Made by a program: the position numbers and the translations under genes | Assembly (NCBI GenBank): GCA_934754755.1 | Contig: CAKVJS010000019.1 | Coordinates: 1-11,924, forward strand | DNA length: 11,924 nt | Source: an uncultured Erysipelotrichales bacterium | GTDB lineage: Bacteria > Bacillota_I > Bacilli_A > Erysipelotrichales > Coprobacillaceae | Direction of reading: 5' to 3' | The notes under the pieces: model-generated | Database searches by the model: none | Told to the model about the DNA's origin: nothing | What the model saw: only the letters and a program-made list of their open reading frames with translations | Part shown: positions 7,132-11,791 of the stretch, in pieces | Numbering within the stretch: the first letter of the stretch is position 1 | Layout: the number at the start of each line of letters is the position of its first letter

Positions 7132-7578
7132 TTATTCTTTATTTTTACTGGCGTGTAGATCATATAGAAAGGCAGTTCCAAAAGTTGCGATCGATCCAAG
7201 TAAGGTCGCAATTCCAATAATATCCTTTCCAAAGGCAATCAGTAAAAAACTGCCGATTAATGCTACTAAAGCAATTAAAAAACCTAAGACTTGACCTAAA
7301 TGAATTTCTTTGATTTTAGCCTGAATCGCGATCTCTTCCATCCGTAGATTATGTTGCTGCGAACTCTCTGCCATAGCCTGCTCTCTTTCTGCCATTTTTA
7401 AAATTCGATTGGCTGCTCCCGGATAAATTTGTTCATACTGTGCGAAATAGGTAGGTGGCGGTAAAGGTCCAGTATACGTCTGACTGATCTGGATTTCTTC
7501 ATTTTCACTCTTCCGATTTCTTGTGAGCTGGCTATGGCTGGTTGCTGCTACTGCATTATCTTTTGTTTTTTGTGTCAT
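7132..7578 (-). CDS. DUF2335-like small membrane protein
   Basis: Function unknown. The 148 residues fall into a polar N-terminus (1-35), a motif TGPLPPP...YEQIYPGAANRIL (about 36-60) that I recognise as the signature of DUF2335 membrane proteins (GPLPxPxxLxxYexIxPGaAerI), a charged, probably helical and coiled stretch rich in Glu/Gln/Ala (60-92), and two hydrophobic helices (about 96-117 and 119-140) with a short Gly-containing turn, ending in a basic tail. The ATG at 7578 overlaps the upstream gene by 23 bases; no good ribosome site precedes it, so translation probably depends on ribosomes leaving that gene. It occupies the place where relatives carry def-fmt and is closed by a terminator. 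The family name rests on motif memory; a profile search would settle it. Confidence 0.82.
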   Translation of the reverse strand: MTQKTKDNAVAATSHSQLTRNRKSENEEIQISQTYTGPLPPPTYFAQYEQIYPGAANRILKMAEREQAMAESSQQHNLRMEEIAIQAKIKEIHLGQVLGFLIALVALIGSFLLIAFGKDIIGIATLLGSIATFGTAFLYDLHASKNKE

Positions 7579-7753
7579 ATTCGTGCATAGCTTTTTCTAT
7601 ATAATTGGCTGTTTTACTCCAATACGAAGCTATTGCTTTATCGGTATCCTGTTTTTTATGTGTATAATCCTCACTTTGGATCATATCTGTTCTAAATATA
7701 CTAGCGATACCATGAATAAGAGACGACTTCACGACTATGTTTTTATCATTCAT
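7556..7753 (-). CDS. Small soluble protein of unknown function, paired with the DUF2335-like gene
   Basis: I do not recognise a named family. The 65 residues hold no membrane segment; they include HGIASIF near 14-20, a polar middle part, and AIASYWSKTANYIEKAMHEY near 41-60, which looks like an amphipathic helix. The general pattern (GIA near the N-terminus, a D-x-x-AI-x-x-x-W stretch, then a helix ending in Y) recalls short proteins I have seen encoded directly before DUF2335 genes; this is memory, not proof. A GTG at 7771 would add six residues, but the AGAGGGTG ribosome site lies 6 bases before ATG 7753, which I chose. It overlaps the next gene by 23 bases and is the first gene behind a dedicated promoter. 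Confidence 0.75.
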   Translation of the reverse strand: MNDKNIVVKSSLIHGIASIFRTDMIQSEDYTHKKQDTDKAIASYWSKTANYIEKAMHEYDTKNKR

Positions 7754-7791
7754 CCATTTCACCCTCTTCACTAATTTTTTATTTCTATATA

Positions 7792-10137: not shown

Positions 10138-11118
10138 TTACTGATCTAATAAATAGGTATAATCGCCGTATCCTTCCTCTTCCATTTTTTCAGCTGGCAC
10201 AAAGCGCAAGGCAGAACTATTAATACAGTATCGAAGTCCCCCTTTATCTTTTGGTCCATCGTTAAATACATGTCCTAAATGCGCGTCCCCGGTTTTACTA
10301 CGCACCTCTGTGCGAGACATTCCATAACGGGTATCATGCTTTTCCTTGATTAATTGTTGATCAATCGGTCTAGAAAAGCTTGGCCAACCACATCCAGATT
10401 CAAACTTATCATTAGATATAAACAAAGGTTCGCCAGTAGTAATATCTACGTATATACCAGGTTTAAATGTATCATAGTATTCATTATCAAAAGGCGATTC
10501 CGTTGCTTCCTGTTGCGTAACTGCATATTGTAAATCGTTTAATTCCTTTAGTAATTGTTCATCTGTTTTTTTAACGTATGTTTTCTTAGTTTTAGTATCT
10601 TTACGTTTACTAGGATCCACTGCTTTTTCAGCCTCCTTAAATAGTTTGGGGTGAATGTGACAGTACCCTCCAGGATTTTTATCTAAATATTTTTGGTGAT
10701 ATGTTTCTGCTGAATAATAATTTTCTAATGGCTGCACCTCAATAACAATAGGGTCTGAATATTGTTTTTGTAATCGTGCGATGGAGTCTTGAATAGTAGG
10801 AGCATCGGTATCTTGGGTGTAATAGATTCCTGTACGATATTGGGAACCAACATCATTACCCTGTCTGTGATAACTTGTCGGATCAATCACTTGATAATAC
10901 ATATCGAGTAAAAATGCAAGTCCTACTTTTTGATCATCATATGTAACTTTTACCGCTTCCGCAAAATTAGTATTCTTATAACATACTTCTTCATAGGTAG
11001 GATTGTCTTTATTTCCATTCGCATATCCTACTTCGGTTTTTAGTACACCTGGAATACTCGCAAAGTATTTTTCTGTGCCCCAAAAACAACCACCTGCTAA
11101 ATAAATTTCTCTTTCCAT
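10138..11118 (-). CDS. msrAB: Fused peptide methionine sulfoxide reductase MsrA-MsrB
   Basis: Repairs oxidised methionine: the MsrA half reduces the S form, the MsrB half the R form. In the 326 residues from ATG 11118, MsrA spans about 3-160 with GGCFWGTE (catalytic C11) and GYCHIHP (C153). A lysine-rich linker (about 170-190) leads to MsrB (about 190-320) with SGCGWPSF (C243) and the catalytic cysteine C298 in RYCINSS. The two CxxC zinc pairs of some MsrB proteins are not seen, so it is the zinc-free type. No signal peptide: it should be cytosolic. The frame runs upstream to 11163, but those 15 residues cross an AT hairpin; GAGGAAAGGG before 11118 marks the start. It stands between gmk and priA, an unusual place for this gene. 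Confidence 0.96.
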
Positions 11119-11147
11119 AATTTTCCCTTTCCTCTTAATTAAACGAA

Positions 11148-11174
11148 AAAATAATATCATCATAATATTATTTT
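11148..11174. repeat. AT-only perfect hairpin in the msrAB leader
   Basis: Ten paired bases (AAAATAATAT / ATATTATTTT) around a 7-base loop, 30 bases upstream of the msrAB start. Both strands have a T run after the stem. With no G-C pair it would be a weak terminator; it could also be an attenuator, a protein site, or simply AT-rich sequence. Confidence 0.4.
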
Positions 11175-11190
11175 CTACATTCTTATAAAA

Positions 11191-11219
11191 AGTATAACCA
11201 AATACTTATAAATTATCTA
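11191..11219 (-). promoter_or_regulatory. Possible promoter of msrAB
   Basis: On the minus strand TAGATA (4 of 6 matches to TTGACA) and TATACT lie 17 bases apart, overlapping the end of the gmk frame. It lies 72 bases before the msrAB start. Moderate match only; msrAB may also be read from the gmk promoter. Confidence 0.35.
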
Positions 11220-11766
11220 AAATTATTTTCGCAATTACTTCCTTGGCTTGAATCACATCGTCGTTTTCAACAACATGTTTATATTCATCCTTTGTCGCAA
11301 TCTCTTTTTTTGCCTTGGCCAAACGCTGTTCCACTACCTCTTCCTTTTCCGTTCTACGCCCGCGAATCCGTCATTCTAATTCTTCCATAGAAGGTGGTAC
11401 TAAAAATATGGTGATCGCCTCTGGGCAAGCTTGCATAACTTGCAGAGCCCCTTGCACTTCAATCTCCAATACTACATTTTTACCTTCGGTTAATAATCGG
11501 TCTACATTATCTTTCGGTGTTCCATAGTAATTCCCCACAAATTGTGCCCACTCTAATAATTCATCCTGTTCTATTTTCTTTTTAAATGTTTCTTCATCCA
11601 CAAAAAAATAATCAATGCCTTCTCTTTCAACTGGTCTTGGTTTCCTAGTTGTCATAGAAATAGAATACGCTAAATGTAAAGAGTCATCCTTGAATAATTC
11701 TTCTCGAACCGTACCTTTTCCCACACCACTAGGCCCACTTAAAATAATAAGTTTGCCCCTTTTCAT
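11206..11766 (-). pseudogene. gmk: Guanylate kinase interrupted by one in-frame TGA
   Basis: Phosphorylates GMP to GDP, an essential step in most bacteria. From ATG 11766 (perfect AAAGGAG site 7 bases upstream) the protein shows the P-loop GPSGVGKGT at 10-18, TTRKPRP with the GMP-binding region, DYFF, GNYYGTP and EIEVQGAL. At codon 132 (11373-11371) stands TGA. Reading on in the same frame gives 54 more residues with the expected lid and C-terminal helices (RTEKEEVVEQRL, AKKEI, YKHVVENDD) up to TAA at 11206, in all 186 codons, near the usual length. E. coli Gmk has Arg here (ELDRRLRGRG), so CGA to TGA is the simplest origin. Without readthrough the product loses part of the lid and the C-terminal helices and is unlikely to work. 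A sequence error, a suppressor tRNA, or a second gmk elsewhere are open options. Confidence 0.9.
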
Positions 11767-11791
11767 TATTACACTCCTTTATATTTATTTT

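Follow-up and report, generated by a model that had tools for sequence, protein, structure and literature searches.

A real and recent opal allele of the native guanylate kinase gene, gmk, segregating among strains and kept alive by leaky readthrough of UGA, is in our estimate the best explanation, with a probability of roughly one half, for an interrupted reading frame in an uncultured, gut-type Erysipelotrichales bacterium of Coprobacillaceae type. The observations to be accounted for, in the stretch of 11,924 nucleotides that was analysed (hereafter, the window), are a single in-frame stop with the frame intact beyond it, a native locus, a sister protein (P0001) ending at the same residue and another (P0005) with a Cys in its place. 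It adds one more case to a known class, the in-frame stop, here in an essential gene, and it is on account of that essentiality that the allele is of moderate interest. A gmk allele with an in-frame TGA was not reported in the literature covered by our non-exhaustive search, and the premature stops in the available text of PMC8868139 are tied to genes other than gmk.

The gene runs on the minus strand from an ATG at 11766 to a TAA ending at 11206 (Table 1). Twelve frames of the window were checked (gmk, ten complete frames and thiN, which is cut by the window start), and the TGA at codon 132 of gmk is the sole internal in-frame stop among them. Taken as an uninterrupted guanylate kinase frame (TIGR03263), gmk is broken at that codon: the 131-residue ORF before it matches positions 1–127 of the 180 in the profile with 179.3 bits, and the 54 residues past it match positions 129–179 with zero shift (E=1.3e-11). 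The profile is thus covered along its length by two parts, each scored alone, the post-stop part (44.4 bits) lying below the whole-protein cut-off of 160.45. The match on both sides is far beyond chance, and a fortuitous resemblance or a wrong frame is ruled out by both parts matching in the same frame. The original observation of a gmk interrupted by a single TGA, with an intact in-frame C-terminus, therefore stands. The base following the TGA is a C, the gene lies 158 bases from the window end, and a scan for promoters and terminators returned none above shuffles.

Table 1. Elements of the interrupted gmk gene, in coordinates of the window
Feature	Position	Strand	Remarks
Shine-Dalgarno-like AAAGGAG	11774..11780	-	7 bases before the gmk ATG; identified by eye
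First 131 gmk codons, nucleotide-binding part without lid and C-terminus	11374..11766	-	TIGR03263, 179.3 bits
In-frame TGA, gmk codon 132	11371..11373	-	P0001 ends there; P0005 has Cys there
Remaining 54 Gmk sense codons with the TAA stop (lid and C-terminus), uninterrupted	11206..11370	-	TIGR03263, positions 129–179

That TGA is a stop in this organism, as had been proposed, is upheld by rpe and prkC, both of which end in TGA, and by the 11 other frames, which are free of internal stops. One internal TGA in 12 frames is not the pattern of a code in which TGA is sense, and genome-wide reassignment is ruled out on the same grounds. There is a more specific alternative, in which selenocysteine or a suppressor tRNA with a UCA anticodon (e.g., one charged with Cys) decodes the UGA of gmk. 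It draws on the alternation of stop and Cys at one codon between close relatives, which resembles selenoproteins and Cys-inserting suppression, and on the selC* tRNA-Cys described from anaerobes including Firmicutes, some with an opal anticodon (PMC7609411); yet most homologues have Arg or Lys at the position, and rpe and prkC end in TGA. The sequence from the TGA on does not form a SECIS-like fold (z +0.79, with 159 of 200 shuffles folding at least as well), and an Rfam search gave one chance match and no SECIS, so that the hairpin of a selenoprotein gene was not found. Among 43 genomes of the family, none had SelB over the cut-off, compared with 2 of 14 controls, and the sub-threshold SelB match present in all 43 is presumably to other translation GTPases. 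Likewise, tRNA-Sec exceeded its gathering score in none of the 43 genomes as opposed to 5 of 14 controls, under stricter search filters; sub-threshold matches were seen in 42 of the 43, the best reaching 46.5 against a gathering score of 47. In the eight stretches fetched for ARAGORN, the places of these near-matches are tRNA-Ser(UGA) and no UCA anticodon was detected; the window itself yielded no tRNA gene. Selenocysteine at the gmk TGA is accordingly rejected as unlikely, and dedicated recoding of either kind is very improbable. The same low standing is given to the version in which the species decodes UGA on purpose, by an opal suppressor tRNA charged with Cys or something comparable, while the sister strain encodes the Cys directly.

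The gmk of the window is, as far as gene order can tell, the native and ordinary copy, because its arrangement with priA is common to the relatives. Going by the first 26 loci compared from relatives, priA comes after gmk in the same orientation in 20 (those without priA being L001, L005, L007, L024, L025 and L026); a further set of 10 short loci shows this in 4. The spacing between them is variable, and behind priA come mostly rsmB, rlmN, stp, prkC, rsgA, rpe and thiN where the locus is long enough. An acquired extra copy is ruled out by the order in those 20 of 26 loci. The best gmk matches in genome_contigs, from Erysipelotrichaceae bacterium S24_Bin3, Clostridiales bacterium VE202-01, Faecalibacillus and Thomasclavelia, have 82–84% identity over the first 131 residues; a database protein named from a Coprobacillaceae bacterium reaches 86%, and the species itself turned up in neither genome set, the top value among the 43 family genomes being 83%. 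An interrupted gmk was not seen as a habit of the group: internal stops are absent from the matches in 42 of the 43 family genomes (the remaining one being matchless), from all 90 relatives' loci and from the matches listed for 148 genomes of the order.

A DUF2335 membrane protein gene (7132–7578, minus strand) lies between priA and rsmB, overlapped by a 71-codon frame (orf71, 7556–7771, minus strand) that has no Pfam match and may not be a gene; together (7132–7771) they look like an insertion, since priA and rsmB are nearly adjacent in most relatives compared. Between gmk and priA sits a fused MsrA-MsrB gene (10138–11163, minus strand). The genes matched across the 36 loci compared from relatives did not include it, and the closest other-species proteins among the matches listed, one of them named from Faecalicatena, have 67–68% identity; by these comparisons it may have been acquired. 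A relative of its product, P0123 (471 residues, from an ENA contig of 16975 bases), has by eye the order MsrB-MsrA-MsrB with an extra MsrB in front.

The question of whether the stop is real turns on the sister sequences. At least 7999 candidates were scored in the gmk protein search and the best 120 compared. P0001, of 131 residues, matches the window's ORF but for V123L and has the same last residue; it is a protein record found on two contigs, the longest of 15500 bases, and its stop codon is presumably TGA as well. Two other proteins also have a longest contig of 15500 bases. One is the PriA P0242, which shows 5 differences from that of the window over 732 residues, one of them needing a change of two bases, and whose contig looks like that of another strain; the other is the MsrAB P0122, found on three contigs and identical to the window's protein minus the first Met. 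We take these three contigs to be one, and the contig counts to belong to the representative, since P0242 has four members yet a single contig. If so, the protein records would place a stop at codon 132 in at least one other strain. P0005, of 172 residues on a single contig of 11962 bases, begins at residue 15, carries E66V, E69V and, at 132, a Cys, and shows no difference from the Gmk of the window over residues 133 to 186.

A lone sequencing error would seem unlikely, because P0001, despite a different residue 123, stops where the window's ORF does and because P0005 reads on via Cys at codon 132; tested against the pattern of stops at the same codon in PMC7918605, P0001 ends, by its protein record, at the codon-132 boundary. 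The one-off error among the explanations originally listed is to that extent weakened, as is selenocysteine-type recoding, although the list as such was sensible. A broader artefact, in which contigs of low coverage or mixed strains brought the same wrong base into several related assemblies, is unlikely but deserves a fuller hearing. It would fit the position of gmk close to the window end, the contig of P0005, which is near the size of the window and has an incomplete gmk start, and the unusual substitutions: residue 123 is V in 116 of the 120 proteins listed, which makes the L of P0001 unusual, and E66V and E69V are each unique among the 120. It is also favoured by the lack of a stop in any of the relatives' gmk listed, which renders a real one surprising. 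On the other hand, P0001 ends at the same residue despite its difference at 123, internal stops are missing from the 11 other frames of the window, and the way in which priA differs from that of the sister contig looks like variation between strains.

If the allele is real, the codon at which it arose is a permissive one. Across the 90 loci, a set in which some genomes are included twice, residue 132 is R in 48, K in 23, N in 5, E, S, D and A in 3 each, and H and L in 1 each; among the 120 proteins listed it is R in 86, K in 26, N in 5, C in 1 (P0005) and a gap in 2, and its counterparts in PDB chains 3tau and 2j41 are Asn and Glu, respectively. As judged from these alignments, it tolerates many side chains and is not strictly Arg, the residue first named for the position from E. 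coli Gmk. The associated derivation of the stop from CGA is one of several possible and is not established, for the commonest codon aligned to the TGA in the 90 loci is AGA (26), with CGA in 2. P0005 is the only one of the 120 with a Cys, which is what a single step between Cys and TGA would lead one to expect. A Cys that arose via TGA would fit a pattern of stop and then sense; a path in which Arg first became Cys and then TGA is just as possible.

The coding sequence past the stop shows no decay. There are 95 columns invariant in 22 relatives, and the window departs from them at one, residue 31, before the stop, agreeing with all 22 of those after it; in the same test 16 of the 22 relatives show no departure, and the other 6 show between one and five. 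Furthermore, the identity of the window's gmk to 19 relatives is slightly above the prediction from priA, rlmN and rsmB, the mean residual being +0.025 before the stop and +0.013 after it, with spreads among the others of 0.031 and 0.072. These comparisons argue that there has been no old decay past the TGA; conservation measured against other species cannot speak to selection after the stop came about.

A further alternative is that a second working gmk elsewhere in the species has left the native copy free to decay. A gmk match is present in 42 of the 43 family genomes, and a second one over the family cut-off in 1 (G012), where it stands besides a native gmk that is next to priA and itself cut off. 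Over the order as a whole, the cut-off is exceeded by a match in 145 of 148 genomes, and apart from G012 a second match exceeds it in at least six (G120, G070, G117, G093, G110 and G051), which lends the alternative some substance, as would relaxed constraint in the unusual substitutions of P0001 and P0005. Against it are the single second match over the cut-off in the 43 family genomes and the lack of decay after the stop; a spare copy is uncommon among relatives, and this alternative is held to be improbable without being negligible. The second gmk of G012 (L103) is full-length, has 47% identity to that of the window and is flanked by frames resembling, by eye, glycerol kinase and an M24-type peptidase. 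Weaker second matches of 31–35% identity occur in G003, where the match is short, G004 and G013; those of the latter two (L099 and L100) are distant Gmk-like kinases near a frame that by eye resembles a MATE-type transporter.

The lid and the C-terminus have a catalytic role in Gmk. A working short Gmk, with both lost, was considered an unlikely candidate, and in Staphylococcus aureus the enzyme is crippled by a substitution in the lid as well as by a deletion at the C-terminus (PMC10101089); restart at a GTG or TTG past the stop, noted by eye, was considered as a candidate route. Under the leaky opal allele, UGA would act as an ordinary stop, with most translation ending at residue 131 and yielding a fragment that lacks the lid and C-terminus and is presumably dead. 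A small fraction of ribosomes would presumably read the UGA with a near-cognate tRNA, that for Trp being usual, and the full-length Gmk would work because residue 132 tolerates many side chains. Such a strain, low in Gmk and presumably in GTP, would live on until the codon becomes sense again. A TGA reporter in Bacillus subtilis was read through at 6% (PMC7918605 Discussion, citing its ref. 42), and in Escherichia coli TGA leaks more than any other stop and is decoded mostly as Trp (PMC11126739). By analogy, leakage at UGA would be a sufficient route to some full-length Gmk. That little may be enough is suggested by S. aureus without (p)ppGpp, which survived with a Gmk that had no detectable activity in vitro (PMC10101089).

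There are also points that weigh against the leaky allele. The contigs of P0001 and P0005 may come from related samples, and the unusual changes in both, with the start of P0005 at residue 15, could possibly point to errors or a decaying gene. A G after TGA raises readthrough and a T lowers it (PMC11126739); the TGA here is followed by C, which is neither of the bases singled out in the available text of that work. Natural near-null gmk alleles should moreover be rare, because Gmk in 990 clinical S. aureus strains had no change that seemed likely to affect its activity (PMC10101089) and because the gmk suppressors of B. subtilis were all base substitutions (PMC11980595, where the gene is called essential). 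If the leaky allele is nevertheless true, the enzyme making GDP, and via it GTP, depends in nature on leakage of UGA, and strains exist at the stop state and at the neighbouring sense state. A short-lived path of stop and then back to sense would become testable in an essential gene, and the allele would give the low-GTP gmk mutants of laboratory selections an equivalent in nature.

Parallels might be struck with three known systems. With the selenoprotein genes and Cys-inserting opal suppression of PMC7609411, the window shares an in-frame TGA and a Cys in a close relative; it differs in having no SECIS-like structure, in a position that is mostly Arg or Lys, and in a family where SelB and tRNA-Sec stayed below their cut-offs throughout the 43 genomes. 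Like the low-activity gmk alleles of B. subtilis and S. aureus lacking (p)ppGpp (PMC11980595, PMC10101089), the allele would lower Gmk and GTP without killing; unlike it, those alleles are substitutions, deletions and promoter changes from laboratory selection, with no nonsense allele in the available text of either source. The third parallel is with the in-frame stops under purifying selection in PMC7918605. Those cases come from many complete genomes, whereas here the gene is essential and the evidence consists of metagenome-type protein records. In both, however, one stop lies in an otherwise intact gene, with a sense codon at its place in another relative; the stop is common to close relatives in PMC7918605, as it would be here if P0001 also ends at a TGA, and the stops of PMC7918605 are mostly young, often going back to sense, and are judged there to be SNP-like states.
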